In this document: one piece after another, positions 10,471 to 25,773 of the stretch | Layout: every line of letters begins with the position of its first letter | Position numbering within the stretch: the stretch's first letter is position 1 | Origin: Phycisphaerales bacterium | GTDB lineage: Bacteria > Planctomycetota > Phycisphaerae > Tepidisphaerales > Tepidisphaeraceae | Direction: 5' to 3' | NCBI GenBank assembly: GCA_020847375.1 | Contig: JADLCB010000005.1 | Span: 1-64,000 of the forward strand | DNA: 64,000 nucleotides | Program-made: the position numbers and the translations under genes | Notes under the pieces: generated by a model | Told to the model about the DNA's origin: nothing | Seen by the model: only the letters and a program-made list of their open reading frames with translations | The model's database searches: none

Positions 10471-10992
10471 TTACGGCTGCGCCGGTGGATGCAGCAGAAA
10501 CATCGACTCCGGCAACGCGATTACTTTCAGCGTCGGCACGCCATCGCCGCCATCACCCGCATCTTCAGCAATAATGCCCCACCGCATACCACCGTGCGAC
10601 GGCGCTGCATCATATAAAATCAATTGCGCCTGCCGCTGCGCCATATAAATACCGCTGGGATTATAAATGTACGGCAAGTGCGAAACCGGGCAGACCAGAC
10701 TCGGCAACGTCCCGCCGCCCGGCATGGCCTGCAGCTCGTCCAGCGACTGTGGCAACTCCCCATGATCAACAAAATAGAGCAAAAACGCGCCGCAAAGATC
10801 GTGCATCTGCGCTGCACAGGCATCGGTGTTGGTAATCGGCGCGGTCTTCGCCGGTTGCGCAGCCAATGATCCCTGGCCTGACACCCGGCTGGCTGATTGC
10901 CGCGAAGCCGGGTGCGCCCGATCCGCTGCGCAGCCTCCCACCATCAACCCAACCAGTAAGACCATCATCACGATCCCGCTTCGCATCAGCAC
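10471..10992 (-). CDS. predicted lipoprotein, possibly last gene of the T2SS operon
   Basis: Protein of 173 residues with a lipoprotein signal: a short charged N-terminus, a hydrophobic run and a VGGC lipobox with Cys21. After a low-complexity linker, the mature part contains LYFVDHGELPQSLDEL and a CPVSHLPYIYNPSG segment, which resembles the small C-terminal domains found in planctomycete pseudopilin-like proteins, though there is no prepilin cleavage site. It lies 211 bp downstream of gspD in the same direction and could be a secretin-associated (pilotin-like) lipoprotein; that role is only positional inference. No firm family recognised. Confidence 0.6.
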   Translation of the reverse strand: MLMRSGIVMMVLLVGLMVGGCAADRAHPASRQSASRVSGQGSLAAQPAKTAPITNTDACAAQMHDLCGAFLLYFVDHGELPQSLDELQAMPGGGTLPSLVCPVSHLPYIYNPSGIYMAQRQAQLILYDAAPSHGGMRWGIIAEDAGDGGDGVPTLKVIALPESMFLLHPPAQP

Positions 10993-11128
10993 ATCATCTC
11001 CTGATTGAACTTGTCACACCATCCAATCATGTTAATCCATTTCGACCATTTCATCCTGATAAAATATCCGCCACGGGGTTTTACCCACAGGGCAAACGCA
11101 AGTAGGCGTCCGACAGGCAATCTCGTAC

Positions 11129-11156
11129 GAGCCGCGACCGTCAGGGAGCGGTTTTT
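11129..11156 (+). repeat. hairpin element ending in a T-tract, possible dispersed repeat
   Basis: A GAGCCGCGACC core and GGGAGCGG arm form CCGC..CC/GG..GCGG pairing around a GTCA loop, followed directly by TTTTT on the plus strand. It lies between gspD and the lipoprotein gene. From memory, close variants of this motif occur in many copies in planctomycete genomes; that needs a genome search. It could act as a plus-strand terminator. Confidence 0.45.
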
Positions 11157-11203
11157 GAGCCGATCACCGCGGGCTACTTGCCAAAGCCACGGGTCTGATC
11201 CAT

Positions 11204-13744
11204 TCAATTCTGATCCGCAGGAACAGGAACCGGGCTGGCCTCTGCCGGTTGGGTCGCCGGCGCTGTTCGCCCGCGTTGCAGCCCGTCCATATGCTCCTGA
11301 AATGCGCCCGGCGTCACCGCATTGGGCACGATCTTCGCCCCTTCCTGCTCCTGCTGACCCATCGCCCCAAGTTGATCAGGGTCGCTGGCCACATGCGGCG
11401 TCAGGAAAATGAGCAGCTCGGTCTTGGCCTTGCTGACTTCATTACGCTGGAACAACATCCCGAGCAGCGGGATGTCCCCCAGAATCGGCACTTTATTGAC
11501 CGTCTGCGTCTTGCGATCCTCCATCAAACCACCGATCACAATCGTCTGCCCGTTGCGCACACCCACGCGCGACTGGGCTGATCGCTTGGCGATGATCGGC
11601 GAGGAAACCTGTTCATTCAGCGGCACACTGCTGCCGGTCAACGCGCTGATTTCCGGCGCCACATCCAGAATCACCAGCCCATCGGGATTGATATGCGGCA
11701 CGACATCCAGCAGGATGCCAATATCCCCATATTCAATCGTGTTGATGATCCCGCCCTGATCGGTGATGCGCGAATTGGTGATGAACGGAACTTCCTGCCC
11801 CACCGTAATGCTCGCCAGTTGATTATCCGATGCCAGAATATAAGGCCGCGACAACACATCCAGCTTCCCCTCGGTCTCCAGCGCCCGAATCGCCGCTGAA
11901 AAGTTGGACTCCAGCACCTGCACCACCAGACCGGTGGCGCTGGCTCCCTGCGTGGGGATGTTGTAATTCGTCCCCGCCGTCTGACCATTGCCATTGGCGC
12001 GTAGATTCAAGACCGACATTTCCGTCCCGATATCCGAACCATTTTCATGTGTCACCTCCGCAATCAACACCTTGATCAGCACCTGGGCGACCGGTTTATC
12101 CAGCTCCTGCAGAATCTCCTTCACCTTCTGATAATTGGTCGGCGAAGTGCGCACCAGCAGCGAATTGGAATCAGGATCGGCAATGATGGTCACCTGCCCC
12201 GCCAGATCGCCTGCCTGCTGCTGCGCCGTGGACGACAGACGCGCCTGCGCCGAGGCAAAACCAGACTGCTGACCGAACGTTCCCGTCCGCGTCTGACCCT
12301 GGGCGAATGTCCCGCCGCTGCTGCCCAGTGTTGTTGTCCCGCGACTGCTGCGGCTGCTGGTTCCACCGCGGGTGGATGTCCCCCGGCTGCTGCGGGCGCT
12401 ATTGAGCGTATTCTGCTGCTGGGTGCTGGTACTCCCGCGCGAAACCGTGCCCGCCCCAAACAGATTATTCAACACGGATTCCAGATTCAGCGCCTGGGCA
12501 TTGCGCAGGCGAAAGACAAACACCGTTTCATCCGACACCGGGTTGGCATCCAGTTGTTTAAGAACTTCACCCACCGATTGCAGGATATTTTCCGATCCAC
12601 TGATCACCACGCTGTTGGTGCGCGTATCAGCTGATGCAGTCACCTTGTTCCCCAGCGCCGAACCGCGCGCCTCGCGCTGCGCCTCCTCGCGCATCCGCTG
12701 CATGAACGCCCCCGGCCCGCGATTGCCTCCCTGCTGGTTGCTGCTTGTACTGCCGGCACCGGTCATCAGATTACCGAAGATTTCATTGATCAACCGGGCC
12801 GCATCGGTCGCACTGGCATATTTCAGCGCAAAAACCTTGACCGACACCGCGTCAGCCAGCGATGTGTCCAGCGCCGCGATAATCTCCACCACCCGCCGCA
12901 CATTGGCCGAAGTATCGGTGATGATCAGGGCATTGCTCGATTCATTGCTGGCAAAATCCGCCTGCGGGTTGACCAGTGGTTGCAGATCACTGCGCAGTTG
13001 CGTGGCACTGGCGTAGCGCAGGGGAATAACCTGCGTAATCATTTCATCCGTCGGCGCAATCAGGCGCGGATCAGATCCGCTGTGTACCGGTATATTCATC
13101 CGTTTCGCCTGATCGCGCGCCACGATCTTGAGAATCCGCCCCTGCTTGATCGCGCTATATCCGGCATTGTGCAGCACCGTATTCAAAAGCGTCACCGCTT
13201 CTTCCTCATTGACCGGCTGACGACTGGTCAACGTCACCCGCCCTGACGGTTTGGCTTCCTTGACCACAATATATCCTGCAGCCGCTGACAACTCGTCCAG
13301 CACAACATCAATGCTGGCATCGCGGAAATTCAGCATCATCCCGCCACCCTGCCGCGTGACATGCTCACCATTGGTGCCATTGCGCGCCGGCTGGGTCGTA
13401 TCCGCACCGGGCACACTAGCCGGACTGTCATTGGCCGGAACCGCTGGTTGATAATAATTGCGCGACCGCGGCAGCGCCGGGGCCTGCCCCTCCGTGCCAT
13501 CCGGCATGATGACTGTATCGGGCATTGGCGGCCCCGCCTCCGGTTCATCCGCCCCAGCCTGGGCTGGCTCGTGCTGCGCGGCCTCATCAACCTGCGCTGC
13601 GGCATCCGTCGCCTCGCCCGACGCCTGCCCCTGCGCCCATTGTCCGCCAAGCCCTGCCCCCACACCGGCACACGCCAGAAAAATCACCCATCGCTGCATC
13701 ATGGAGGCCTCACATCGATCTTGAACATTGCTGTTGTTTTTCAT
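11204..13744 (-). CDS. gspD: type II secretion system secretin GspD
   Basis: Outer-membrane channel subunit, 846 residues, longer than typical GspD (about 650-700). A signal peptide lies at the N-terminus; an in-frame ATG at 13702, preceded by GAGG, may be the true start. Domains in order: acidic/proline linker 40-130, N0 about 136-212, N1 235-298, N2 300-400, N3 405-550 and secretin barrel 555-785 with VPILGDIPLLG at 752-762, the family C-terminal signature. Two insertions enlarge it: a polar, charged insert in N2 (about 330-360) and a Ser/Thr/Gly/Gln-rich insert in N3 (about 432-510). The C-terminal tail (790-846) is proline-rich and could bind a pilotin. It starts 2 bp after the upstream gene and closes the gsp run. 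Confidence 0.93.
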   Translation of the reverse strand: MKNNSNVQDRCEASMMQRWVIFLACAGVGAGLGGQWAQGQASGEATDAAAQVDEAAQHEPAQAGADEPEAGPPMPDTVIMPDGTEGQAPALPRSRNYYQPAVPANDSPASVPGADTTQPARNGTNGEHVTRQGGGMMLNFRDASIDVVLDELSAAAGYIVVKEAKPSGRVTLTSRQPVNEEEAVTLLNTVLHNAGYSAIKQGRILKIVARDQAKRMNIPVHSGSDPRLIAPTDEMITQVIPLRYASATQLRSDLQPLVNPQADFASNESSNALIITDTSANVRRVVEIIAALDTSLADAVSVKVFALKYASATDAARLINEIFGNLMTGAGSTSSNQQGGNRGPGAFMQRMREEAQREARGSALGNKVTASADTRTNSVVISGSENILQSVGEVLKQLDANPVSDETVFVFRLRNAQALNLESVLNNLFGAGTVSRGSTSTQQQNTLNSARSSRGTSTRGGTSSRSSRGTTTLGSSGGTFAQGQTRTGTFGQQSGFASAQARLSSTAQQQAGDLAGQVTIIADPDSNSLLVRTSPTNYQKVKEILQELDKPVAQVLIKVLIAEVTHENGSDIGTEMSVLNLRANGNGQTAGTNYNIPTQGASATGLVVQVLESNFSAAIRALETEGKLDVLSRPYILASDNQLASITVGQEVPFITNSRITDQGGIINTIEYGDIGILLDVVPHINPDGLVILDVAPEISALTGSSVPLNEQVSSPIIAKRSAQSRVGVRNGQTIVIGGLMEDRKTQTVNKVPILGDIPLLGMLFQRNEVSKAKTELLIFLTPHVASDPDQLGAMGQQEQEGAKIVPNAVTPGAFQEHMDGLQRGRTAPATQPAEASPVPVPADQN

Positions 13745-13746
13745 GT

Positions 13747-14340
13747 TTACGGATTCCTGTTGATGATACGCTGACGGTTCTGCCGCAACCGCTCCAGCGT
13801 ACTGAGCGCTGCTGGGTCCGTTGCCGCCTGATCCTGTTCGGCTGGTTTACCCCCGGCCGTTGCCGTCGTCGGTGACGATGACGCGCCCGCCGGCGTGGCA
13901 TCCACCACCACACTGGCGCCGGTCAGATCATGACCGATCTCCACCCAGCGGCTGCGCCCCTGGCTGTCCAGATAGGCAACGGCGTCAATGGCGATTTCCG
14001 TCACCACCCCCTTGCCAATGCTTTCCCCCGGCGACACGCGCACCGGCGCACCACCTGACAGATTTTCAAAGTATGCACGCACCTGCCCGTCTTCAAACAC
14101 CACACCCGTCAGCATGAGCGACTGCTCGATCGTCCGCGGTGGTGCCGCCGGACGTGTCGTCGGTTCAACCGTGCGCTGACCGCGCTGGCGCAGAAAGATG
14201 TTGTCCTGAATCACCACGCCATAACGCTGGTTGAACTGATCGGTTTCATCGCGATTTTCCGGTGTCTGACCCGACACCTCTGTGCCGCACAACGCCGCCA
14301 TCAGCGCCATCAAAATCGTAGTTCGTGCCATGTTGTTCAT
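13747..14340 (-). CDS. GspC/PilP-like periplasmic T2SS protein
   Basis: Protein of 197 residues with an N-terminal signal-like hydrophobic segment. Its middle contains LTGVVFEDGQVRAYFEN and VSPGESIGKGVV, the small beta-sandwich pattern (homology region) by which GspC or PilP contacts the secretin N0 domain. No PDZ domain follows; the C-terminus is low-complexity and ends in charged residues. Its position between the GspM/PilO-like gene and gspD is exactly where pilP or a gspC substitute would be expected. It overlaps the upstream gene by 4 bases (ATGA). The function as inner-membrane-to-secretin connector is inferred from motif and position. Confidence 0.65.
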   Translation of the reverse strand: MNNMARTTILMALMAALCGTEVSGQTPENRDETDQFNQRYGVVIQDNIFLRQRGQRTVEPTTRPAAPPRTIEQSLMLTGVVFEDGQVRAYFENLSGGAPVRVSPGESIGKGVVTEIAIDAVAYLDSQGRSRWVEIGHDLTGASVVVDATPAGASSSPTTATAGGKPAEQDQAATDPAALSTLERLRQNRQRIINRNP

Positions 14341-14894
14341 CGCTTCGCCTCCATCCCGGCCGGTTCATCAGCCAGCAGGATCGTGGATAATCCGATCACC
14401 ACCGACAGATCATCCGTGTTCTCCTTGCGCGAGGTGATCTGCACATCGCTGATGCGCACCGGTATGCTGGCCGACTGCACCTGGCTGAGAAACCGCGCCA
14501 CCTGCTGCATCGTCCCCACCGCCGCCGCCCGCACGGTGATTTTCTGAAACCCCCGCTCCTTTTCGCTGCGTTCGGGTTTGAGTGACTGCAGCGACAACCG
14601 GCTGACATCGGCCCAGTTGCGCGTTGCATTCAGAAGCTGACTTTCGCTGTCCGACGCATTGTTCTTGAGCGTATCACCTTTCATCTGATCCCAGACACCC
14701 TGGGCATGTTGATCGTTCGTCAGGGTCTGGCGGGCTGCGTCCAACTCGCTGCGCGCCGCCTTCAACGTCGCCCCCGCTTCAGACCAGCGCGTCAATAGTG
14801 GCGACAGCAGCACCCGGTCCAGCGCCAAAAGCCCCAGGGCAATCGCCGCGATCAAACCAATGCGCTTCTCGCGACTGTTGAGACTACTGAGCAT
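14337..14894 (-). CDS. gspM: GspM/PilO-like T2SS assembly protein
   Basis: Single-pass membrane protein of 185 residues: an N-terminal membrane helix at about 11-32, a predicted coiled coil at about 40-62, and a C-terminal ferredoxin-like region that contains FQKITVRAAAVGTMQQVARFLSQ and IRISDVQI-type strands. This is the GspM/PilO layout: it dimerises with GspL/PilN in the inner membrane and supports the assembly platform. The first 11 bases overlap the end of the PilM/GspL-like gene, which suggests translational coupling. The family name is assigned mainly from topology, length and operon place. Confidence 0.72.
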   Translation of the reverse strand: MLSSLNSREKRIGLIAAIALGLLALDRVLLSPLLTRWSEAGATLKAARSELDAARQTLTNDQHAQGVWDQMKGDTLKNNASDSESQLLNATRNWADVSRLSLQSLKPERSEKERGFQKITVRAAAVGTMQQVARFLSQVQSASIPVRISDVQITSRKENTDDLSVVIGLSTILLADEPAGMEAKR

Positions 14895-16350
14895 CAGCGC
14901 CTCCGATATAAATGAAGTTGATTGAAAATGTCACCTCGCTGCTGCTGCCGGTTGACTGGCCTAATTGCAGGTCGGTCAGCCGCCCATTGGTTTTCAAACG
15001 ATCCAGCAGCGCCAGCACCGAAGGATGGCTGACCGCCTTGCCCATGAGCGAGCCTTTGCGATTATCCCGCAATAAAAACCCCGTTGCCCAGATCGAGCTG
15101 TCCGTGCCAAACGCCGTGGCAATATCACGCAGGCAATCCAAAGCAGGCGGCCTTTGCTGATAAAATGAACGCCCGAAACTGAAGCGGTCCAGATTCGCCT
15201 CCGCCTGTTTCACCTGCGGTTTTAATTCATCGAGCTGGCTTTGCAGCCCCTTCGCCTGCCCCTCGCGGCTGACAACCGAATAATACAGACCCGCCAGCCC
15301 AAGCAGAATAATTACAATCGCCACACCGCCCAGCAGCATCGGTCGTTCCAGATGGCGCGATTTCGGAGTCACCAAACGTGGCTGAACAAAATTGACATTC
15401 CCGCTGTTGGGTCTCCCCGCCAGCATCCCCACCGCAATCGCCGGCCACAGAGCCTGCAACTGCTTCGCGTCACCCGCCTCGTCTGAAACGGACAAACCCA
15501 GCAGCGCCGACATATTTTGCAACTGCAAAAATTCAACCGGCAATCCATCCCGGACAGTGGATGACGCCCCTGCAAACTGGCCCGGCCCTTGTTCGCTCCA
15601 CACCAACAGTCCGCGCGGCACATCGCCCGGCCGGCTGCTCATCATCAGTGTTCGCCGCACCTCACCCAGCATCGTCGTCATTCGCCCGGACGATGATTGC
15701 GCTCCGCCTTGCGCCTCGCCGTCATCCGCACCGCCAAGATGCTTGAGCAACAACGGTACACCCTGCTGCTGCCACACCAGCTCATCATCCAACCGGCCCA
15801 TCATCACCAGTGGCCGCCCCTCGGCCGATAGTGGCTGCGCCATCGCCAGCGCCGTCGGACAAATACCCACCAGCTTCAGTTGCGCCGTCCGGCAGATCTG
15901 TTCGATATGATTCTGCTGCCGTTTGAGAATCCCCACCAACAACACCTGCGACGCCGCACTGCCGCCCAGCACCCCGGCCACATCAAACACCATCTCCTCG
16001 ACGGCCATGCGCTCGCTTTGCAACTGCAACATCGCCACCGCCCCACCCGCGTCAATCGGTGGCAATTGACGCAATTGCGCAATCACCCACTTCGCCGGTA
16101 CGCCGACATAAACGCCATGCCCTTCAAAATGGTGTTGGTCGAGAAACGCGCGCAGCAATTGACCTGCCGCCTCGGGCTGATCGACTGTCATGCCTTGGGA
16201 AAAATCCAGTCGCGCCAATTTCTGCACAACCGCCCCGCGGCTGCGCAGCGCCAGCTGAGCGCAGCTGATCCCGCGCTCATCCACTGCCAGCCCAATAACT
16301 CCATGCCTCATCGCCTTCATGCTGTTGCGTTCCTCGTTCTGCTGTTTCAT
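14884..16350 (-). CDS. gspL: GspL-like protein (PilM actin-like domain fused to PilN-like domain)
   Basis: Protein of 488 residues combining what type IV pilus systems make as two proteins. Residues 15-320 form an ASKHA/PilM-like cytosolic domain (VIGLAVDERGISCAQLAL at the start, then VYVGVPAKWVIAQLRQLPP, and an AIAVGML block near 308). A membrane helix follows at about 338-360, then a coiled coil (about 365-392) and a PilN-like periplasmic domain. That order is the layout of GspL, which anchors GspE to the inner membrane. An internal ATG 30 bases downstream (residue 11) is an alternative start. The gene lies between gspK and the GspM-like gene. Confidence 0.78.
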   Translation of the reverse strand: MKQQNEERNSMKAMRHGVIGLAVDERGISCAQLALRSRGAVVQKLARLDFSQGMTVDQPEAAGQLLRAFLDQHHFEGHGVYVGVPAKWVIAQLRQLPPIDAGGAVAMLQLQSERMAVEEMVFDVAGVLGGSAASQVLLVGILKRQQNHIEQICRTAQLKLVGICPTALAMAQPLSAEGRPLVMMGRLDDELVWQQQGVPLLLKHLGGADDGEAQGGAQSSSGRMTTMLGEVRRTLMMSSRPGDVPRGLLVWSEQGPGQFAGASSTVRDGLPVEFLQLQNMSALLGLSVSDEAGDAKQLQALWPAIAVGMLAGRPNSGNVNFVQPRLVTPKSRHLERPMLLGGVAIVIILLGLAGLYYSVVSREGQAKGLQSQLDELKPQVKQAEANLDRFSFGRSFYQQRPPALDCLRDIATAFGTDSSIWATGFLLRDNRKGSLMGKAVSHPSVLALLDRLKTNGRLTDLQLGQSTGSSSEVTFSINFIYIGGADAQ

Positions 16351-16390
16351 CCATCAGCACCAATGCTGATTACCTGATTCTCCGCCAGAC

Positions 16391-17878
16391 TCAGTTCAAC
16401 CGCGCTGAACTCGCCACCGCGCTACCGGCGCGCAGGTTGTCCAGTATCGCCTGATCCAGCGGCCAGCCGCGTTCGGTCATGTCACGCCGAAACAAAATTC
16501 GCGGCGGGCTGGTCTCCCGCGCCACCACCAGCCGTACACGCTCAAATGCCCGGCCATCACCACTGACTGCCACAATATCGGCTGACCAGATGGCGCCTTG
16601 ACCGGTAATCTGATCACCCAGGTCGATCAGCTTCTGGCTGACACGCTGTGGATCGCCAAAGGCATCCAGCACCCACGCGATTGATCCCGCATCGGTCGTG
16701 CTGAGCGTGGTACCCTGCACCGGTCGCCGTGCCAGTAGCGTGTCCGCATCGGCCTCACTCAAGCCCGCCAGCGTCATCAGTACCTGGCGCGGGGCTGAAT
16801 TGATATTGACGCGCAGCGGGGGCAACGCGGCTGGATCATTCTGCCCCTGCGTCAACGGTTCAACCCGGATATAGGGTTCGAGCGTCCGCAATTCCGCAGC
16901 GCTCAACCGGGTGCGAATGGCAAAATCCAGCACATTTCGCAAATCGCCCCGACCCAACAAACCCGCCACTTCATCCCCACGACTCTGCCCCAGTTGCTGC
17001 CGCAACATCGCTGCAAATTCATTGCGCATCTGCTGATTATTCGGATTCAGCCGATCGGTTCCTTCACTGCTTTGCTGCGCTGCCCGGCCCCAGACCGTCA
17101 ACAGATCATACACCCCATGCGCCTGATACCACTGCGGCGCAAAAGTCTGACTCTGACCGGTCAATGTACTGCCCGCCCCATCCGCCTCCACCCCGAAAAG
17201 CAGTTGACGATCCATCCCCTTGACCATCAGCAATTCTTCCACACTCTCAAACGGACTGTTCTTGGCGCGATACGGATCACGCCGTGATAGATAGCTTTCG
17301 CTCTCCGCCCCCTGGCCGGTGATGCTGTCATCTTCGTCGCGCCAATCGACAATGCTGTCAGCCAGTTCGTCCGTCATCCCCTCCAATTTTTTCAATACAT
17401 CCAAAGGAGCCAGATTGATATCCAGTTTGGATGATTCATCCACCAATCCGAACGCCGGCAAACCCGGATCATCATAATCCGGTCGCACCAGCCAGAAATA
17501 TCCGCTCCCCACCGGCACGGCCGCAAAATCCGCCTCGGGTAATGATTCGATCGGATCGGTGCTTTCACTCAGCATCGCCAGCACATACTGCTCCGCCGAA
17601 CGCGCCACCATCCGCGCCTGCGCCGCTGATCGCTCATTGGCTGACGCCGATAATTCAACCTGCATCGCCTGGCCCAGCACAATCACCATCGACACCAGCG
17701 CAAAAATAATGACCATCGCCGCAATCAGCACCATCGCCCGCCGCTGCCGCTTGCGTCCCTCTGTCCATCGGCGCGCAATCACATAAGAACCAAAACGCTC
17801 AACAGCGCTGACATAACGACAATCGCAAATTGGCTGGCACTTACCGGGCAATGCTCTGCTCCTGCGATTGGCTGTCAA
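16391..17878 (-). CDS. gspK: type II secretion minor pseudopilin GspK
   Basis: Large minor pseudopilin of about 495 residues; GspK caps the pseudopilus tip with GspI and GspJ. A hydrophobic helix (about 49-70, after RKRQRRAM) is followed by the family body, which contains the two helix-hairpin-helix-like saposin-type stretches LDINLAPLDVLKKLEGMTD (about 152) and VNINSAPRQVLMTLAGLSE (about 364). Such paired INxAP motifs are characteristic of GspK. The reading to 17878 overlaps gspJ by 38 bases and gives a long N-terminus; a GTG near 17782 would give the usual short prepilin leader, so the start is uncertain. The canonical Glu5 region is weak, as is usual for GspK. Confidence 0.85.
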   Translation of the reverse strand: MTANRRSRALPGKCQPICDCRYVSAVERFGSYVIARRWTEGRKRQRRAMVLIAAMVIIFALVSMVIVLGQAMQVELSASANERSAAQARMVARSAEQYVLAMLSESTDPIESLPEADFAAVPVGSGYFWLVRPDYDDPGLPAFGLVDESSKLDINLAPLDVLKKLEGMTDELADSIVDWRDEDDSITGQGAESESYLSRRDPYRAKNSPFESVEELLMVKGMDRQLLFGVEADGAGSTLTGQSQTFAPQWYQAHGVYDLLTVWGRAAQQSSEGTDRLNPNNQQMRNEFAAMLRQQLGQSRGDEVAGLLGRGDLRNVLDFAIRTRLSAAELRTLEPYIRVEPLTQGQNDPAALPPLRVNINSAPRQVLMTLAGLSEADADTLLARRPVQGTTLSTTDAGSIAWVLDAFGDPQRVSQKLIDLGDQITGQGAIWSADIVAVSGDGRAFERVRLVVARETSPPRILFRRDMTERGWPLDQAILDNLRAGSAVASSARLN

Positions 17879-18611
17879 CCGCCGTACTCAGTGGGAATAT
17901 CTGGCTAATCTGATACGGCCGCTGCCCATCGACCGGCGACGGGCTGTCGAATGTCAACGTCACCTCCACCGCGCGCGGAAGCACCTGGCCATCAACATCA
18001 GAATCCCATTGCTCCACCCACCCCTCGGTGCTGCTGTAATAACGCAAGGCCAGCGCACGCACATGCTCCGACAGCACTTCCGTGATCGCCTCACGTTCAA
18101 CCGGCGACAATAAATTCGGTTCAACCAGCCGCACCAGTTGCGCCGGCTGCACATCCGTGCGCAACTGCAGCGTAATGCGTCGCGCTCCCTCGGCCAGAGG
18201 ATCATCACTCGCCGCTGCATCATCCCGCTGCAGCGCGTAAAACTCGACCCAGTCGCTGGCAGCATTGGCATCGCCGCCACGATCCCCGACAAACGCACTG
18301 CTCAACGTGCCATCCGGCGGCAGAATCGACTCGAAATCCTGGCGGATGATATTGGTGATAATCGACGCCTGACGCATCGCATCCACCTGCCGGCTCGCCT
18401 GACGGCGCGCCTGAAATGCCGTCGCCAGCGCCGTGTAAAGCGCTGCGGCGATAACCGCGACCATCGCCGTAGCCAGAATCACCTCCAGCAGGGTGAATCC
18501 GCTGATACCCCAATGCCTCTGATGACCTGGGCAGCCAGAACCACGCTGGCGCAAATAGCGCCCGCCACACTGCTGATCCCGTCTGATGCAATGATCCTTT
18601 TTGATATTCAT
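17841..18611 (-). CDS. gspJ: type II secretion minor pseudopilin GspJ
   Basis: Prepilin-like protein of 256 residues. The leader is unusually long and charged (about 36 residues), ending in the cleavage motif SG|FTLLEVILA with the conserved Glu5. Then follow the N-terminal helix and a periplasmic domain of GspJ type, including a QLRTDVQPAQLVRLVE strand region and a late TLTFDSPSP. It forms the pseudopilus tip complex with GspI and GspK. ATG at 18611 overlaps the gspI stop as ATGA, which supports this start and translational coupling; the longer reading to 18683 is inside gspI. Confidence 0.85.
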   Translation of the reverse strand: MNIKKDHCIRRDQQCGGRYLRQRGSGCPGHQRHWGISGFTLLEVILATAMVAVIAAALYTALATAFQARRQASRQVDAMRQASIITNIIRQDFESILPPDGTLSSAFVGDRGGDANAASDWVEFYALQRDDAAASDDPLAEGARRITLQLRTDVQPAQLVRLVEPNLLSPVEREAITEVLSEHVRALALRYYSSTEGWVEQWDSDVDGQVLPRAVEVTLTFDSPSPVDGQRPYQISQIFPLSTAVDSQSQEQSIAR

Positions 18612-19090
18612 TGCACCACCTGCCCCGGCGGATACATCCAGCCGTCCAAAGTCACCGAGTATTCCTGCCCGCGCTCCTGCCAACTGACCGTCATCTGCGC
18701 TTCATACAAACCCCAGTCGCGGCTGACCGCTGTCACCTGCCACCGATATTCAGGCCACGACTGCCCAAAATCACCCGAACCGCTGAGCAGCGCCACATTC
18801 TGCTGAATGAGCAACTCATTGAGTTTCGCCTCAGCCAGATGAGTCGCCTCTGCTTCATGCCGCGATCGACTCGCCGCCTGCGCTGACAGCGTTATTCCGC
18901 GCATCACCGCTGGCAGGGCAATACCCACCAGCACCAGCGTCGCCAGGGTCTCAATCAGCGTAATACCGCTGCGCCGCTGTCCACTGCAGCGCGCTGCCAC
19001 AACGTCATGCCTCCGTGCAACAGCCTCATGCCCGCGCGCAGTCTCGCGCCGTTGATGATGTAACCACGAAGTTGTATGACAAAACTTCAT
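18608..19090 (-). CDS. gspI: type II secretion minor pseudopilin GspI
   Basis: Prepilin-like protein of 160 residues with cleavage motif RSG|ITLIETLATLVLVG after a long, arginine-rich leader of about 40 residues, Glu5 present. The mature protein has the short GspI layout (EAEATHLAEAKLNELL, then a WPEYRWQV and SVTLDGWMYP ending). GspI nucleates the pseudopilus tip. ATG at 19090 overlaps the last base of the gspH stop (TGATG), so this start is preferred to the one at 19165 inside gspH. The long leaders of gspI and gspJ are odd and may indicate that a downstream start is used. Confidence 0.83.
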   Translation of the reverse strand: MKFCHTTSWLHHQRRETARGHEAVARRHDVVAARCSGQRRSGITLIETLATLVLVGIALPAVMRGITLSAQAASRSRHEAEATHLAEAKLNELLIQQNVALLSGSGDFGQSWPEYRWQVTAVSRDWGLYEAQMTVSWQERGQEYSVTLDGWMYPPGQVVQ

Positions 19091-19575
19091 CACATCGCCC
19101 CGGTTGGCACGAGTTGAAACAGCTCCGCTGGAGCACTGGCCCGCAGCTCGACCACTTCGCCCCAATCCGCCATCAACCGGATCGAACCCGGCGTCACGCG
19201 CCCATCCGGATAAAACTCCAGCTTGTTCGTCGTTTGATTCAATGGCTGCATTTGCACCCGAAAATTAACCGGCAGCTCGATGGCATGATCGAATTCGCCG
19301 TCCGCCGGCTTATTACCCATCACACCCGTCGCCACCACTTGATACGCGGTACCATCGGCGCTGGCCTCCAGTTGATAAACCCTCGCCGTCGCCACCGCCC
19401 GACTACGCGCAAAGCGGGTCGCCGCGATTAGCTGATCTGTCGCATCGCGCAACTTCGATCCACGCCCCCATCCGCGCAGATTCGGAACGGCCATCGCCAT
19501 CAACATCGCCAATACCGCCAAGACGAGCACCAGCTCGATCAACGTAAAGGCAAAATGACTGCGACGATGCGCCAT
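19090..19575 (-). CDS. gspH: type II secretion pseudopilin GspH
   Basis: Pseudopilin of 161 residues with a short basic leader (MAHRRSHFA) and the cleavage/methylation motif A|FTLIELVLVLAVLA, Glu5 present. The body contains LIAATRFARSRAVATARVYQLE, the ARSRA pattern characteristic of GspH/FimT-type minor pilins, then a beta domain with FYPDGRVTPGSIRL. It sits between gspG and gspI. FimT of type IV pili is the main alternative, but the surrounding gsp genes make GspH the better name. Confidence 0.87.
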   Translation of the reverse strand: MAHRRSHFAFTLIELVLVLAVLAMLMAMAVPNLRGWGRGSKLRDATDQLIAATRFARSRAVATARVYQLEASADGTAYQVVATGVMGNKPADGEFDHAIELPVNFRVQMQPLNQTTNKLEFYPDGRVTPGSIRLMADWGEVVELRASAPAELFQLVPTGAM

Positions 19576-19622
19576 TCAATCATCTCCATCACAACCCCAG
19601 CCCCACCGCAACAACCGGCCCG

Positions 19623-20060
19623 TTACTGCCAGTTGCCAATGTCATCTTCGCTTTCGCGCCCATCAGGCCCGAACGACCACAAATCAAACCCCTGCGCATT
19701 ACGCTGGCCGGGATAACGATACTGATACTCGTTGCCCCACGGATCCTTGGGCATACCCCCATCCAGATACGGCTGACGCCACCCGCTGACATTGGCCGGC
19801 TTGGTGATCAGTGCGCCCAGACCTTCATCCGTCGTCGGGTAACGCCCGTTATCAATCTCAAACGTGTTGATCGCCAGTTTGATACTGGCAATATCCGCCT
19901 TGGCCGCCGTTTCGCGCGCCTGCTCGGATCGGCCGGTAAACTTGGGAATCACCAGCGCCGCCAGCACACCAAGAATCACCAGCACCAACAACAGCTCCAT
20001 CAAGGTAAAACCCCGGCGAAGCACCCGCCTGCGATTATTGCCATTGTTCATCGTCATCAT
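19623..20060 (-). CDS. gspG: type II secretion major pseudopilin GspG
   Basis: Major pseudopilin, 145 residues from ATG 20060, which has AGGAG at ideal spacing; an in-frame GTG at 20132 overlapping gspF gives an unlikely 41-residue leader. The cleavage motif RRG|FTLMELLLVLVILG has Glu5. The mature protein is a canonical GspG: KADIASIKLAINTFEIDNGRYP then TTDEGLGALITKP, GGMPKDPWGNEYQYRYPG and FDLWSFGPDG with the calcium-binding loop. Polymerised GspG forms the pseudopilus that pushes substrates through GspD. It needs a prepilin peptidase, which is not in this window. Confidence 0.95.
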   Translation of the reverse strand: MMTMNNGNNRRRVLRRGFTLMELLLVLVILGVLAALVIPKFTGRSEQARETAAKADIASIKLAINTFEIDNGRYPTTDEGLGALITKPANVSGWRQPYLDGGMPKDPWGNEYQYRYPGQRNAQGFDLWSFGPDGRESEDDIGNWQ

Positions 20061-20128
20061 GTTCAAACTCCTGTTTTGTGTCTTTGATCCGCTCATATTC
20101 ATATTCATCATCATTTCACCGGTTGTTT

Positions 20129-21355
20129 TCACTTGATCATGTCCTGCAAGGTGAACAGCGGCAGCAGCATCGACACCACCACCGTGCCAATGAGCGCAGC
20201 CATGATCAAAAGCAGCAGCGGTTCAGCCAGGCCAACCAGAATGCGCAAATTGCGATCCAGGTCGCTCTCGTACGCACTGGCCAGACGCTGCAGTTCACTG
20301 TCCAACCGGCCTGTTTCCTCCGCCACACTGATCGTCTCGACCACGCTGGCTGGAAACAGCAGCGTGCTGTCGGCCAGCGCCCGGTTCAGTGGCGTCCCGC
20401 GCTGCACTTCATTAATCGCGTGTTCAACCGTATCCTGCAACGTCTGATTGCCAATCGCCTGCCTGGCCACGCGCAGCGATGTCACCAGCGGCACCCCCGC
20501 CCCCACCAGCGTGCCGAGCATCCGGCAGAACCGCACCAGCGCAAAGCGTGAAATCACCGTCCCCAGGGCTGGCGTGCGCAACATCGCGCGCTCAATCGTC
20601 CGGCGACCCTGGTCGGTTGTCGCTGCCCGTCGCAGCGCCACCGCCGCAATAACACCCGCTGCCGCAATCACCACGCCATATTCCAGCAACCACCGGCTTA
20701 CGTTCACCACCACGCGCGTCAACAGCGGCAACTCCGAACCGAACTGGGCGAAAATACGGCTGAAACGCGGAATAAAAAATGTCAGCAAAAAGATCAGAAC
20801 CCCCGTCGCCACCACCGCCAGGGCAACAGGATAAATCAGCGCTGTTTTGACTTTGCCCGTCAAATCCTGCTCACGCTGGCGAAAATCCGCAATCTGTTGC
20901 AGCACCACATGCAGAAATCCGCCGGCCTCACCCGCCCGCACCATCGCCACATAAACCGGGCTGAAGACGCGCGGCCAGACCGCCATTGCATCACCCAGCG
21001 ACTGACCCCCAACCACATCGTCGTGAATTTTTGACCACACACTGCGGGCGGTTGCATTGGATGCCTCGCGCCGCAACAACGCCAGCCCACGTGACAACGA
21101 CAACCCGCCAGCCAGCAGGTTCGCCAGTTCGCGTGTGAATGATTCCACCGCTTTTTTATGAACTTTCACGCTCGCTGCCGGCACGGCCGTAATTGCAGCA
21201 GCCCCCCCGTTGCCATTGGCCTTTTCCTCAAGCGACAGCGGGGACAACCCCCTGCCTGCCAGGCTGTCCATGGCCGCAGCGCGCGAGTCCGCTGGCATCG
21301 TACCCTGGGTACGCCGCCCACTCTGATCGATCGCCACATACGCAAAAACAGCCAT
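20129..21355 (-). CDS. gspF: type II secretion inner-membrane platform protein GspF
   Basis: Polytopic platform protein of 408 residues, the normal length. The N-terminal MAVFAYVAIDQSGRRTQG and the duplicated GspF/PilC domains are present: VHKKAVESFTRELANLLAGG near 85, GQSLGDAM near 135, and FCRMLGTLVGAGVPLVTSL in the second copy. There are three membrane helices (about 190, 240 and 385). It works with ATPase GspE to add and remove pseudopilin subunits. The ATG shares a base with the gspE stop codon, so the two are coupled. Confidence 0.94.
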   Translation of the reverse strand: MAVFAYVAIDQSGRRTQGTMPADSRAAAMDSLAGRGLSPLSLEEKANGNGGAAAITAVPAASVKVHKKAVESFTRELANLLAGGLSLSRGLALLRREASNATARSVWSKIHDDVVGGQSLGDAMAVWPRVFSPVYVAMVRAGEAGGFLHVVLQQIADFRQREQDLTGKVKTALIYPVALAVVATGVLIFLLTFFIPRFSRIFAQFGSELPLLTRVVVNVSRWLLEYGVVIAAAGVIAAVALRRAATTDQGRRTIERAMLRTPALGTVISRFALVRFCRMLGTLVGAGVPLVTSLRVARQAIGNQTLQDTVEHAINEVQRGTPLNRALADSTLLFPASVVETISVAEETGRLDSELQRLASAYESDLDRNLRILVGLAEPLLLLIMAALIGTVVVSMLLPLFTLQDMIK

Positions 21356-23082
21356 CAGCCCTTCACCTCCGGCGATAGCGCACCGCCCATCAGATGCTGA
21401 TCCGCCTGCTCATCCTTGGTATTGCGGATCACTTCATCGACCGTCGTTCGCCCCTCGCGCACAATCCGCCAGCCATCATCACGCAAACTGCGCATACCCT
21501 GCCTGCTCGCCACTTTGCGCAGCTCATGCGACGGCGCACCCGCCAGAATCAAGGCGCGGATTTCATCCGTCACTTCCATCATTTCAAAAACACCCTGACG
21601 CCCATAAAAACCGGTGTTCTGACAGGCGCGGCAACCCGCCCCCTCATACAGGTGTTCCGGCACCAGCTCACCAAAGGTGGCGCGCAGTTTGTCCGCTTCA
21701 CGCCTGGCCATCTCCCGTTTGCACTGCGGGCAGATCAACCGCACGAGCCGCTGCGCCAGAACCACCTCCAGCGATGAGGAGACCAGATACGGTTCCACGC
21801 CCATGTCCACCAGCCGCGTCGCGGCGCCGGGCGCATCATTCGTATGCAGCGTGCTGAAAACCAGATGGCCCGTCAACGATGCCTGCACCGCAATTTCCGC
21901 TGTTTCCAGATCACGAATTTCCCCCACCAGCACCACATCAGGATCGTGGCGAAGAATCGAACGCAAACCGGCTGCAAACGTCAAACCGGTTTTGGTGGAA
22001 ACCTGAATCTGATTCACCCCGCGCAATTGATATTCCACCGGGTCTTCAATGGTGATGATCTTGCGCTGCACATCATTGATCCGACTCAGCCCGGCGTACA
22101 GCGTGGTGGTTTTACCCGAACCCGTCGGGCCGGTGACCAGCACAATGCCATGAGGCATATCCAGCACCCGGTCGAAAATGTCGCGGTCACGCTGCGCCAT
22201 CCCCAGATGCTCTGGCCCCAGCAGCGCGTCGCTGCGTTGCAAAAGGCGCATCACCACCGCTTCACCATGAATCATGGGAATGATCGACACGCGCACGTCG
22301 ATTTCCCTGCCCGCCAGCTTGAGCTTGATGCGCCCGTCCTGGGGCAGGCGTTTTTCGGCAATGTCCAGATGCGCCAGAATCTTGATGCGCGACACGATGG
22401 CTGCATGAAACCGCCGGATGCTGGGCGGAACATTGGCTTCCTGCAACACGCCGTCAATGCGGTAACGCAGACGAAGCTGGTCCTCAAAAGGTTCGACGTG
22501 CACGTCGGTGGCCCGGCTCTCGATTGCCTCGATCAACACCTGGTTGACGAACTTGATGATTGACGCATCATGCGCCGCCGAGCTGACATCCAGATCATTT
22601 TCATCTTCACTGATGACTTCAATGCCCGCCGCCGCATCGAGTGATTGCAGCGTATCGGCGCCCACGCCCAGCAGACGTTTGAGGGCACGGCCAATTTCCC
22701 CCGCCGGCGCCAGTGCCGGCGTGCAATCACGTCCGGTCGCCAGACGCAACTGATCCAGCGCCCCGCCACTGTCACTCAACCGCGAAACCGCCACCAGTGT
22801 GCGCCCGCTGCGCAGCTCCAGCGGCAGCACATTGTGCTCCACCAGAACGCGCACGGGAAACTGGCTGAGAAATTCACGATCCGGTTCGACCTTTTCCACA
22901 TCGACATACGGAACATCGTAAATATCCGCCAGCACCTGCAGCAGCGTCTGCTCACTGAACCCATCGGCGGCCAGCACCGCGTCCTCCAGTGTTTTTCCTT
23001 CATTCAGCAACTGACGCGCGCGGCTCATCCCCGCCGCATCCAGCAGCCCGCGCTGACCGATAATTTCAATTAAATGACTCAT
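21355..23082 (-). CDS. gspE: type II secretion ATPase GspE
   Basis: Secretion ATPase of 575 residues. An N-terminal MshEN-like domain (about 1-140) is followed by the N2 and RecA-like domains: GPTGSGKT Walker A at 318-325, Asp box IITIEDPVEYQ near 342-352, Walker B DPDVVLVGEIRD at 380-391, and His box GHLVFSTLHTND. A zinc module with CxxC pairs is intact (Cys451, Cys454, Cys484, Cys487). It powers pseudopilus assembly at the cytosolic face, docked on the GspL-like protein. The first secretion gene of the operon, 139 bp below a Spy-like gene, with a palindromic element in that gap. Confidence 0.95.
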   Translation of the reverse strand: MSHLIEIIGQRGLLDAAGMSRARQLLNEGKTLEDAVLAADGFSEQTLLQVLADIYDVPYVDVEKVEPDREFLSQFPVRVLVEHNVLPLELRSGRTLVAVSRLSDSGGALDQLRLATGRDCTPALAPAGEIGRALKRLLGVGADTLQSLDAAAGIEVISEDENDLDVSSAAHDASIIKFVNQVLIEAIESRATDVHVEPFEDQLRLRYRIDGVLQEANVPPSIRRFHAAIVSRIKILAHLDIAEKRLPQDGRIKLKLAGREIDVRVSIIPMIHGEAVVMRLLQRSDALLGPEHLGMAQRDRDIFDRVLDMPHGIVLVTGPTGSGKTTTLYAGLSRINDVQRKIITIEDPVEYQLRGVNQIQVSTKTGLTFAAGLRSILRHDPDVVLVGEIRDLETAEIAVQASLTGHLVFSTLHTNDAPGAATRLVDMGVEPYLVSSSLEVVLAQRLVRLICPQCKREMARREADKLRATFGELVPEHLYEGAGCRACQNTGFYGRQGVFEMMEVTDEIRALILAGAPSHELRKVASRQGMRSLRDDGWRIVREGRTTVDEVIRNTKDEQADQHLMGGALSPEVKG

Positions 23083-23119
23083 GATCCATCAACCATCACA
23101 GCGATGACCAAACGCCTCA

Positions 23120-23194
23120 ACCGGTGACGATTTTGCCTGTCCGCCACACCAGCCACTGGCCAGTGCGCATCGAACCGACAACACCGTCACCGGT
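23120..23194. promoter_or_regulatory. palindromic element upstream of gspE
   Basis: Perfect 10-bp arms ACCGGTGACG (23120-23129) and CGTCACCGGT (23185-23194) flank a 12-bp palindrome CACTGGCCAGTG (23154-23165). As RNA it can fold into a long cruciform-like structure just ahead of the gspE ribosome site. There is no T-tract, so it is not an ordinary terminator. A regulatory role for the secretion genes is inference. Confidence 0.5.
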
Positions 23195-23221
23195 ATCGGC
23201 TTGTGCTGATTTCGCGCCGGA

Positions 23222-23761
23222 CTATTCAAGCATCCCCACCATCACCAGGACCGCTTCCTGACGCGGGGTCAACACTTCAGACAGCTCCTTGCGGGCGGTA
23301 TCCAGATCACCTTCCGCCTTCTCACGGGCGGCTCGATAGGCAACCAGTTTTTCCTGGATCGCCTCCTCCGTGCTGGCCTCATCGCGCACCGTCTGGCGCA
23401 ATTCGTCATGGGTACGCTGCACATCGTTTTGCGGCTGGTCATCGTCGCGCATCCGGTCGCCCCGACCGAAAGCGCCGCCAAAACCACGCAGAGACCGCTG
23501 GATTTCAGCCACTTTCTCGATTCGCGGCTGAATCACCGTCCATTCCTCGTCGGTCGTTTTAAGTTGCTCTTTCAGACGATTCATCATCATCTGGCGCATC
23601 TGCTCGGGGTCCATGCGCGGCCGGTCACCGCGTTCACCACGATTGCCACGCTCATTGCGTTCGTTTCGGTCGCCACGGGGTGGCGCGTCATTCTGCGCCC
23701 AGGCCAATGTTCCAACCAGCGTGCTTCCTGCCAGCACCAGCGTCAACAACTGCCGTTTCAT
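23222..23761 (-). CDS. secreted Spy/LTXXQ-like protein
   Basis: Protein of 179 residues with a clear signal peptide (MKRQLLTLVLAGSTLVGTLAWAQ, cleaved at AWA-Q). A strongly charged RGD/RNER repeat region (about 28-48) is followed by a helical domain: MDPEQMRQMMMNRLKEQLK, and near the end EVLTPRQEAVLVMVGML, the LTxxQ motif of the Spy/CpxP/CnrX superfamily. Family members are periplasmic chaperones or stress and metal sensors. It is one of two such proteins between the sigma/anti-sigma pair and gspE, so a role in sensing or protecting envelope proteins during secretion is plausible but unproven. Confidence 0.65.
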   Translation of the reverse strand: MKRQLLTLVLAGSTLVGTLAWAQNDAPPRGDRNERNERGNRGERGDRPRMDPEQMRQMMMNRLKEQLKTTDEEWTVIQPRIEKVAEIQRSLRGFGGAFGRGDRMRDDDQPQNDVQRTHDELRQTVRDEASTEEAIQEKLVAYRAAREKAEGDLDTARKELSEVLTPRQEAVLVMVGMLE

Positions 23762-23863
23762 AAGTCACTCACTTTCCGAGCCAATCGCGGCTCAATTAAA
23801 GAGGGTTGGGAAAAACTCCACGTTATCCGTTTTTTTATCAACCAGCGCCAGCCCATTCATCGT

Positions 23864-24448
23864 TTACGGCCTTGCTTCATCCGGCGCGTCATGGCCGGGC
23901 ATCATCCGGTTGGTCGGCCGGCTCGATGGCCCGCCGCGCGGCCCCATGCGGCGATGCTCGCGATCGCGCTGTTCCCAGCGCTGGGTGAGCTGTTCATATT
24001 TTTCCAACTGCTGCGGCGTCAGAATCTGCCGCGTCTTTTGCATCGCTTCGTCATAGGCGCGGCGCCACTGCTGATCCTGCTCCACTGAACGCCGGGCATA
24101 ATCATTGACAATCGCCTCATACGATGCCTTGTCTTCCGGGCGGATCAGCGCTGCAATCGCCTCCTCCCGCTGCTGACGCAGTTCCCGACGACGCTCATCC
24201 ATCAGGCCCCGCCCCGCCCCCACTGCCTGCGACCAGATTTCACGCATCTGTTGCTGCTGGTCGGGGCTGAGCGACAACTGCGACGCCAGGAATCCGCCCC
24301 GATCCGGCGGGGCTTCGCCACGGCGCGCCCAAGGTTGCCCACTGGCAGCTCCAGGCGGATCATGACGTTGACCAAATCGGTTCAGCCCGACGATCAAACC
24401 CGCTAGAAACGCCACGACAAAACCGATTGTCACCATCAGGCGTGTCAT
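23864..24448 (-). CDS. membrane-anchored Spy/CpxP-like (LTXXQ) periplasmic sensor protein
   Basis: Protein of 194 residues with an N-terminal membrane anchor (about 5-23) and a helical periplasmic domain. It carries two copies of the superfamily motif: LSLSPDQQQQMREIW near 60 and QILTPQQLEKYEQL near 145, separated by a long arginine- and glutamate-rich helix. The tail is low-complexity, rich in Arg, Gly and Pro. The start overlaps the anti-sigma stop by 4 bases (ATGA), so it is translated with the sigma regulators. In CnrX-type systems such a protein signals to the anti-sigma factor; the arrangement here makes that the leading hypothesis. Confidence 0.68.
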   Translation of the reverse strand: MTRLMVTIGFVVAFLAGLIVGLNRFGQRHDPPGAASGQPWARRGEAPPDRGGFLASQLSLSPDQQQQMREIWSQAVGAGRGLMDERRRELRQQREEAIAALIRPEDKASYEAIVNDYARRSVEQDQQWRRAYDEAMQKTRQILTPQQLEKYEQLTQRWEQRDREHRRMGPRGGPSSRPTNRMMPGHDAPDEARP

Positions 24449-24906
24449 GGTTGCACCCTCGACATTTCCGCCAGATCGCTGGCCATCCAGTCGGCCACCA
24501 CCAGCGAATCAGGCACGCTGCCATCACCGCCGCTGAGCATCACAAACTGATCCACCGGCGAAAAATCAGTTGCTGCCGCCGATGAATTGGACTGCGCCGG
24601 AGTCAAATCCGGTACGGCAAAACTCAACGCCAGCACCGCCGCCGCTGCCGCCGTCAACCAACCACTAAGCCGGCGCACCGATTGTTCGCGATTGTTTCGC
24701 AGGACACGCCGTAGCCGCTGGATCGTCATCGGCAACGGCTGAACGAGCGGCGCCTCATCCAACAGGCGCGAAACACCCTGCAACTGCGCCAATTCCTGGG
24801 TGCATTGGCTGCACGTGCGCAAATGCGACTGAAATTCCAGTTCTTCCCGCGGCGTCAGTTCGCCGTCATGATGAAGCTGAACGAAATTATGCTGATCGCA
24901 TGTCAT
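24445..24906 (-). CDS. anti-sigma factor with zinc-finger (zf-HC2) domain
   Basis: Protein of 153 residues. The N-terminal zf-HC2 signature is seen (Cys3, then HLRTCSQC with the His-x3-Cys-x2-Cys pattern at about 29-36), followed by a single membrane helix at about 82-103 and a periplasmic tail. This is the standard layout of an anti-sigma factor that holds its ECF sigma at the membrane and releases it on an envelope signal. It begins 40 bp after the sigma gene and overlaps the next gene by 4 bases. The tail contains a VDQFVMLSGGDG motif of unknown role. Confidence 0.85.
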   Translation of the reverse strand: MTCDQHNFVQLHHDGELTPREELEFQSHLRTCSQCTQELAQLQGVSRLLDEAPLVQPLPMTIQRLRRVLRNNREQSVRRLSGWLTAAAAAVLALSFAVPDLTPAQSNSSAAATDFSPVDQFVMLSGGDGSVPDSLVVADWMASDLAEMSRVQP

Positions 24907-24946
24907 GGTCTGTTGCCTGTGATTCAGATCCGCTGTCGTTTGACAT

Positions 24947-25504
24947 TCATTGTTTTTTCAACATCTGCTTCAACTGCTGCCGCGCCCGGTGCAGCCGCGA
25001 CTCAACCGTACCGCGCGGCACATTCAACACTTCGGCAATCTGGTCATAACTCATCTGCTCCAGCTCGCGCAGAATGATGACCTGGCGCTGATCTTCATCC
25101 AGCCTGGAAAGCAGTTCCGCTAGGTCCAGACGCGCATCCACCGCAGCTGTGGCATCGGACACGGGCTGGGGCGGCGGCTGATCCTTCTCGCGCCGCCAGC
25201 GCCGCCAGCGCCGGCGTGACAGGGCAATCTGCCGCAGCAAAATGCCCACCAGCCATGTCCGCACCGCCGATGAACCATCAAACCGCGCCTTCAGCGCTGC
25301 TGCCAGACATTCCTGCACGACATCTTCCGCATCATGCACCGACCGCAGCGAAGCCCGGGCAATGCTCAGCAAATAAGGGGCATGACGATCGACCAGTTCA
25401 CCAAACGACCGCTCGTCGCCGCACTGGCTACGCTGCAGGAGTTGATCATCCGGCGTCGTCTGGCCCATGCGCTGGAGCATTCCCTTCGTAAGATATGGTT
25501 GCAT
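24947..25504 (-). CDS. ECF-family RNA polymerase sigma factor
   Basis: Sigma factor of 185 residues with region 2 (FGELVDRHAPYLLSIAR, then DAEDVVQECLAAALK near 60-75, and FDGSSAVRTWLVGILLR for -10 recognition) and region 4 (LDEDQRQVIILRELEQMSYDQIAEVLNVPRGTVESRLHRAR split over about 132-175, a helix-turn-helix). There is no region 1.1 or 3. A basic RRRWRRWRREK linker joins the domains. It likely directs transcription of the operon it heads, which runs through the Spy-like genes to the gsp genes, under control of the neighbouring anti-sigma factor. Starts at Met9 or Met13 are possible, since no strong ribosome site precedes Met1. Confidence 0.9.
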   Translation of the reverse strand: MQPYLTKGMLQRMGQTTPDDQLLQRSQCGDERSFGELVDRHAPYLLSIARASLRSVHDAEDVVQECLAAALKARFDGSSAVRTWLVGILLRQIALSRRRWRRWRREKDQPPPQPVSDATAAVDARLDLAELLSRLDEDQRQVIILRELEQMSYDQIAEVLNVPRGTVESRLHRARQQLKQMLKKQ

Positions 25505-25567
25505 TAAACGCGCATTTTCTTCCCGCTGATAAAAAATTTTATCCGATAACGCCCGCCCCAGCGAACC

Positions 25568-25595: not shown

Positions 25596-25608
25596 AGGTT
25601 CCCTTGAT

Positions 25609-25679
25609 AGGGGTATGGTGTAACGGTAGCACAAGCGCCTCTGGAGCGCTTTGTCTAGGTTCGAATCCTAGTACCCCTG
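25609..25679 (+). tRNA. tRNA-Gln (anticodon CTG)
   Basis: A full cloverleaf can be drawn: acceptor AGGGGTA/TACCCCT, D-stem GTGT/GCAC, anticodon stem AGCGC/GCGCT around loop CTCTGGA (anticodon CTG, reads CAG), and T-arm CTAGG-TTCGAAT-CCTAG. The discriminator base is G and CCA is not encoded. The A-T first pair fits glutamine tRNAs. Confidence 0.95.
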
Positions 25680-25773
25680 TTCTTCCCCTCAACGTCGATC
25701 AGTTGCGCGAACACCCAGGTGCGTCAAGGTATGATCCCAAACGCGCAACGCCATGTGAGGAAGATCACACTGC

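Follow-up and report, generated by a model that had tools for sequence, protein, structure and literature searches.

In this study, we show that the type II secretion system (T2SS) genes of a Phycisphaerales bacterium are headed by genes for an ECF sigma factor, a membrane-bound anti-sigma factor and a membrane-anchored Spy-family protein (LTQ1), here termed the cassette, and that this arrangement recurs in many genera. With moderate confidence, we regard as the best explanation an ECF switch that is dedicated to the T2SS and amplifies itself. That a dedicated ECF circuit controls the T2SS had been proposed in the initial annotation of this DNA, and this is strongly supported by the gene order, by a promoter located only at the operon head and found nowhere else in the genome, and by a relative (genome G098) in which the promoter motif heads a detached secretion operon. 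The window (the whole stretch of 64,000 nucleotides analysed) carries the operon on its minus strand, running in one direction from 25504 to 10471 as sigma, anti-sigma, LTQ1, LTQ2, gspEFGHIJKLM, a GspC-like gene, gspD and a lipoprotein gene:

25495..25523, minus strand: ECF-type promoter, 27.6 bits, with -35 element GGAAGAAA (25523-25516), 13 nt, and -10 element GCAACCAT (25502-25495)
24947..25504, minus strand: ECF sigma factor (PF04542, Sigma70_r2; PF08281, Sigma70_r4_2; TIGR02937; promoter position)
24445..24906, minus strand: ZAS anti-sigma factor, membrane-bound, with a conserved periplasmic tail motif WE ... WMxxDLS (PF13490 at 30.1 bits; alignment)
23864..24448, minus strand: LTQ1, Spy-family (LTXXQ) protein, membrane-anchored (PF07813 at 35.9 bits; profile match to E. 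coli Spy 3oeo, 5e-5; predicted model and Foldseek)
23222..23761, minus strand: LTQ2, secreted helical protein ending in LTxRQEAxLVxxGxLE (alignment; model with pLDDT 80.2; best Foldseek match CnrX, prob 1.00; gspE linkage)
23119..23194, minus strand: long stem-loop in the LTQ2-gspE gap, without a T-run (folding; comparable stable hairpins in many relatives)
21355..23082, minus strand: gspE (PF00437, PF05157)
20129..21355, minus strand: gspF (PF00482)
19623..20132, minus strand: gspG, major pseudopilin (PF08334)
19090..19575, minus strand: gspH (PF12019)
18608..19165, minus strand: gspI-like pseudopilin, open reading frame start probably too long (PF07963 below cut-off; position)
17841..18683, minus strand: gspJ, open reading frame start probably too long (PF11612)
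16391..17878, minus strand: gspK (PF21687, PF03934)
14884..16350, minus strand: gspL-like gene (position, kept in relatives; no Pfam match)
14337..14894, minus strand: gspM/PilO-like gene (PF04350)
13747..14340, minus strand: gspC-like gene (position, kept in relatives; no Pfam match)
11204..13744, minus strand: gspD secretin with N0 domain (PF00263, PF03958, PF21305)
10471..10992, minus strand: small lipoprotein-like gene at the operon end (no Pfam match; 3' of gspD in many relatives)

All genes are present on one strand in the order first described, from sigma through anti-sigma and the LTxxQ genes to gspE and gspD, and the reported overlaps of 1 to 11 bases were verified (1 base for gspE/gspF; 4 bases for gspF/gspG, gspM/gspC-like and anti-sigma/LTQ1; 11 bases for gspL/gspM). 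The secretion set comprises GspE, GspF, the pseudopilins G to K, L, M, a C-like protein and the secretin D with its N0 domain, L, C and I being recognized mainly by position, and a prepilin peptidase is encoded elsewhere in the genome. A tRNA-Gln gene (25608-25680, plus strand) is divergent from the operon. Secretin domains are also found within open frames of about 1,000-6,000 codons in many Phycisphaerae genomes (for example G044:C18:6228-7034, G009:C1:40670-41590 and G182:C128:1636-2475); these giant proteins are separate from the T2SS described here.

The sigma factor (185 amino acids) contains regions 2 and 4 only, which places it among the ECF sigma factors. Its annotated ATG (25504) falls within the -10 element of the conserved promoter, and the true start is therefore probably M9 (25480) or M13 (25468). 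The product of the gene 3' of sigma matches zf-HC2 (PF13490) above the cut-off and falls into the class I (ASDI/ZAS) anti-sigma factors; the His and Cys columns of its Hx3Cx2C motif are conserved at 92% across the alignment, and one transmembrane segment is read from the sequence. Homologues without the Hx3Cx2C zinc ligands occur in three T2SS cassettes (L034, L047 and L050). The conserved periplasmic tail of the anti-sigma factor is a candidate contact site for LTQ1, and the M50 proteases encoded in the genome are candidates for its cleavage. No Pfam match to a FecR-like regulator or a TonB-transducer receptor was found in the cassette proteins, which sets them apart from a VreAIR-type system.

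A conserved promoter motif was found upstream of the sigma gene. An unsupervised two-block count recovered GGAAG-N17-CAAC in 19 of 39 sigma upstream regions (maximum of 4 in shuffled sets), and the aligned consensus is GGAAGAAA-N13-GCAACTAT with identical spacing in 34 of 37 sites. A GGAA core in the -35 element and such spacing are typical of ECF promoters, and the consensus, with its GGAA-type -35 and fixed spacing, has the form of an autoregulated promoter. At the threshold adopted for a promoter site, 17 bits, the weight matrix matched upstream of 41 of 45 cassette sigma genes (25/27 linked to a T2SS and 16/18 others) and, among 8 sigma genes left out when the matrix was built, upstream of 7. 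Two of these held-out sites (L222 and L227) come from loci closely related to a modelled one (L050) and are not independent of it. At the same threshold there was no site upstream of LTQ2 behind a cassette (0/30), of gspE (0/61) or of stand-alone LTQ2 genes (0/27). The search for a target promoter of sigma suggested in the initial annotation was thus successful ahead of the sigma gene itself (25523-25495), but not ahead of gspE. Because the position of the motif before the sigma gene is strict, we infer that the adjacent sigma factor itself reads it. The sigma proteins are divergent, no other sharing more than 50% identity with that of the window, and it is this divergence that indicates, at the level of sequence, that the promoter element is kept by selection.

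The same gene order, which the initial annotation had proposed to look for, is found in other Phycisphaerae. LTQ1 is present in 36 of the 198 genomes of the class searched, and the complete order sigma, anti-sigma, LTQ1, LTQ2, gspE to gspD was found at 24 loci of the class with at least seven family codes (20-kb contexts; on broken contigs the order was followed as far as the contig reaches). It is also found in separately fetched named contigs, which brings the total to 27-30 distinct loci spread over many families of the Phycisphaerae, and a genome from another class-level group of Planctomycetota has it as well (L234; G286). At nearly all loci the LTQ1 gene overlaps the anti-sigma gene or directly adjoins it. 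The gene order is beyond chance because it is conserved in many genera, and the contrary prospect, that sigma and Spy-like genes would never stand beside gsp genes in relatives, does not apply. One T2SS cassette counted among the 24 (G097; L056) keeps the anti-sigma and LTQ1 genes, but both the sigma gene and the promoter motif have been lost from it.

It seems that the circuit serves this operon in particular. The only exact match to the motif in the 3.0-Mb genome of the window is the sigma promoter of the operon, and for this reason the sigma circuit looks dedicated to the T2SS operon; we consider it likely that the circuit is specific to it. Mismatched forms of the motif, which would have pointed to a wider regulon in this genome, were no commoner than a backward control, and 11 of the 14 exact matches in the 23 genomes with a linked cassette were sigma promoters. 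A second sigma promoter upstream of LTQ2 or gspE was searched for in cassette operons and is absent. In G098, the LTQ2-headed T2SS operon and the only cassette detected lie on separate contigs, the cassette stopping at a contig edge with its downstream neighbours out of view, and the motif stands at the head of the LTQ2-gspE operon (24.1 bits, 85 nt upstream of the LTQ2 match). This is the one motif-bearing head among 31 cassette-less LTQ2-gspE operons. Since the detached operon keeps the motif and the other 30 are without it, the comparison points to a sigma factor that acts on the T2SS genes as such, beyond its own gene. We hold it very probable that the sigma factor drives the operon.

The 139-nt gap between LTQ2 and gspE in the window contains a hairpin of -67 kcal/mol (z -3.4) with no T-run, and very stable hairpins, likewise free of a T-run, occur in the same gap of many relatives. 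A repeat-element origin of this hairpin was considered and set aside, its arm occurring once in the window. The hairpin might cut transcription, and among the structural arguments against a uniform transcript it is the principal one; it may also set different levels for the regulator and the machine genes. On this basis the cassette could be a short transcript of its own that happens to be a neighbour of gspE to gspD, the latter being transcribed from another promoter after the hairpin, and the existence of T2SS operons without a cassette would fit such an arrangement. However, the hairpin of the window has no T-run, the order is kept across many genera despite the low identity of the window's sigma factor to the others, and the motif heads the detached operon in G098. 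We therefore judge mere neighbourhood to be very unlikely, and retain a sigma factor that transcribes the whole operon.

The cassette is not an obligatory companion of the secretion genes. On the gspE tree, the cassette must have come or gone about nine times, and at least five of these events fall on well-supported branches (one locus, L255, is labelled as lacking the cassette only through the score cut-off, and another, L247, is cut by a contig end), and therefore the cassette has been repeatedly gained or lost with LTQ2 retained. The roughly 30 LTQ2-gspE operons that have neither cassette nor motif indicate that the T2SS can be run otherwise. Paralogous sigma, anti-sigma and LTQ1 sets without T2SS genes were also found; part of them form a supported clade, in which the -10 element is mostly GGAAC as opposed to GCAAC. 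In five of them (L049, L065, L066, L068 and L069) the cassette adjoins genes for proteins that are predicted to be exported and carry an LExRxLLS-like motif at the N-terminus, sedolisin-like peptidases among them by inspection, and no NCBIfam model matched these neighbour proteins. In L064 (350, minus strand) and L066 (15128, plus strand) the promoter motif has a second copy, which is divergent. Because paralogous cassettes adjoin other, probably exported, proteins, the module is not specific to the T2SS; perhaps the T2SS version is one branch of a general switch for exported proteins.

The overlap of the LTQ1 gene with the anti-sigma gene by 4 bases and the two LTxxQ copies of its product (LSPDQ and LTPQQ) were as initially described. 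LTQ1 exceeds the cut-off of PF07813 (24.3 bits) and belongs to the Spy/CpxP LTXXQ family; its predicted model consists of an anchor helix and a helical domain, with Spy as the top Foldseek match and CnrX as a weaker one. It was suggested that LTQ1 gates the anti-sigma factor as CnrX does. This is supported only as an analogy, LTQ1 being a Spy-family membrane protein whose gene overlaps that of the anti-sigma factor, but there are no conserved histidine ligands, and the anti-sigma factor is of the ZAS type and not CnrY-like. A metal sensor proper, in which LTQ1 would bind a metal ion and release the anti-sigma factor so that metal stress turns on secretion, would suit the similar three-part layout of CnrX-CnrY-CnrH and the Foldseek matches to CnrX, which is found for LTQ2 and more weakly for LTQ1. 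Nevertheless, no metal-binding histidine is conserved (the best His column reaches 33% in LTQ1 and 4% in LTQ2), LTQ1 is nearer to Spy by sequence and stays below the Metal_resist cut-off, and no metal-efflux genes were seen among the annotated neighbours. Metal sensing was rejected as the leading reading on the histidines, and we regard it as highly improbable. That LTQ1 modulates the anti-sigma factor is, in our opinion, reasonably probable.

LTQ2 had been described as a second secreted LTxxQ protein. It carries a signal peptide and one LTPRQ near its C-terminus, but it matches no LTXXQ model of Pfam or NCBIfam, nor any other family in these two databases, and has no sequence match in the PDB. 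Its model is a helical hairpin with pLDDT above 90 in the core (80.2 overall), and the top Foldseek matches are CnrX and CpxP with probabilities of 0.95-1.00 but E values of 0.19 or worse; its proposed kinship to Spy, CpxP and CnrX rests on the C-terminal motif and on a predicted fold that resembles those of CnrX and CpxP. Homology between LTQ1 and LTQ2 was not demonstrated by profile comparison (probability 17%). Among the genomes of the class, LTQ2 occurs in 45 of the 48 that match GspD strongly as against 14 of the remaining 150 (counts read by eye), and it lies upstream of gspE in 60 of 61 gspE loci, a count biased by loci found partly through LTQ2 itself; the exception (G040) was found through GspD. 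When named genomes were scanned with LTQ2 alone, 37 of 39 loci had gspE directly downstream (some of these contigs being loci already fetched from the class), and the LTQ2-gspE pair was found in Planctomycetota, Verrucomicrobiota, Lentisphaerota, Omnitrophota, Hydrogenedentota and Sumerlaeota. One named-scan locus (L233) has the cassette and LTQ2 with no gspE in the following 2 kb of the contig. No LTQ2 was found beside cassettes of the class outside T2SS loci, some of these contigs ending close to LTQ1. Four tandem LTQ2 genes lie between LTQ1 and gspE at one locus (L059:12202-14631, genome G080), and stand-alone LTQ2 paralogues without gsp genes were seen at L126, L127, L129, L130, L132, L133 and L135, among which no consistent neighbours were seen.

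The proposal that LTQ2 is a second sensor of the sigma circuit is at odds with these distributions, in which LTQ2 tracks the secretion genes and is missing from every class cassette outside the T2SS. Because it stands directly upstream of gspE without a cassette and is absent from paralogous cassettes, gene context indicates that LTQ2 is a member of the secretion operon and not of the sigma circuit, and we think it rather likely that it acts with the T2SS. A signalling role could still be imagined as a secretion checkpoint, in which the T2SS itself removes LTQ2, or LTQ2 resides on the machine, so that its periplasmic level reports machine function and its build-up acts on LTQ1 or the anti-sigma factor to change sigma activity, as in the export of FlgM in flagella. 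The place of its gene between the sensor genes and gspE (directly before gspE at the 60 loci above), its signal peptide, the four tandem copies and a model resembling the CnrX/CpxP/Spy fold of LTQ1 would all suit a checkpoint. However, LTQ2 is kept in the 31 operons without an adjacent cassette and in phyla that showed no cassette, and because it persists without the cassette, its main role is not signalling to this sigma factor; we find the checkpoint unlikely.

The dedicated switch could operate as follows. At rest, the ZAS anti-sigma factor would hold sigma at the inner membrane with the assistance of LTQ1, whose periplasmic Spy-like domain would contact the short periplasmic tail of the anti-sigma factor. 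LTQ1 would become occupied by exported proteins that wait for secretion, or by damaged envelope proteins, once these fill the periplasm; the anti-sigma factor would then be released or cleaved, and free sigma would transcribe the entire operon, so that more secretion machine, LTQ1 and LTQ2 would be made until the load is cleared. LTQ2 would be a periplasmic partner of the secretion machine (a chaperone, assembly factor or escort) rather than a sensor for sigma. As to the signal, secretion load or periplasmic protein stress is a tentative choice, for which we have slightly less than even confidence. More speculatively, LTQ2 may be a previously unnamed and widely conserved periplasmic T2SS component of Planctomycetota and allied phyla, which in Phycisphaerae has become linked with an ECF circuit, specific to the operon, that gauges how the machine is working and sets its own synthesis accordingly; this is possible, and we lean toward doubting it.

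The arrangement suggests that the cell tunes its secretion machine to envelope conditions. It is poorly understood how bacteria adjust their stock of secretion machines to the export load, and here switch and machine share one operon and one defined, directly testable promoter, with natural gains and losses of the switch that allow comparison. In addition, LTQ2 is a new protein family tied to the T2SS in several phyla where secretion has hardly been studied. The literature searched contained no operon-internal, apparently operon-specific T2SS circuit with a Spy-like membrane protein and no LTQ2 family; for the same arrangement in Planctomycetota nothing was found, subscription papers being mostly outside the coverage.

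ECF control of the T2SS is already known, because there are precedents in VreI-Hxc and RpoE-eps. VreI of Pseudomonas aeruginosa, encoded next to the Hxc T2SS genes, increases the expression of those genes (PMC2729926; PMC7035377). The VreA-VreI-VreR/Hxc region is similar to the present operon in that genes for an ECF sigma factor and its anti-sigma factor directly adjoin a T2SS cluster; it differs in its TonB-transducer-like sensor VreA with a cell-surface-signalling regulator, and in its wider phosphate-linked regulon (TPS, ExbBD), whereas here a ZAS anti-sigma factor and the Spy-like LTQ1 are found with one promoter heading the T2SS genes. In Vibrio cholerae, failure or loss of the T2SS activates RpoE, and RpoE is responsible for expression of the eps T2SS (PMC6598108, citing Sikora 2007 and Zielke 2014). 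RpoE is the general envelope sigma factor, in contrast to the present one, which is apparently specific to one operon and located inside it. The CnrY-CnrX-CnrH system of Cupriavidus metallidurans likewise combines an ECF sigma factor, a membrane anti-sigma factor and a membrane-anchored LTXXQ-fold protein; here, however, there are no conserved metal ligands, the anti-sigma factor is of the ZAS type and the targets are secretion genes and not metal efflux genes. Finally, LTQ1 shares PF07813 and its match to Spy with the Spy/CpxP/ZraP proteins, and the LTQ2 model is nearest to CnrX and CpxP. Unlike those proteins, LTQ1 is membrane-anchored and travels with an anti-sigma factor, and LTQ2, which is in no family model, travels with gspE.
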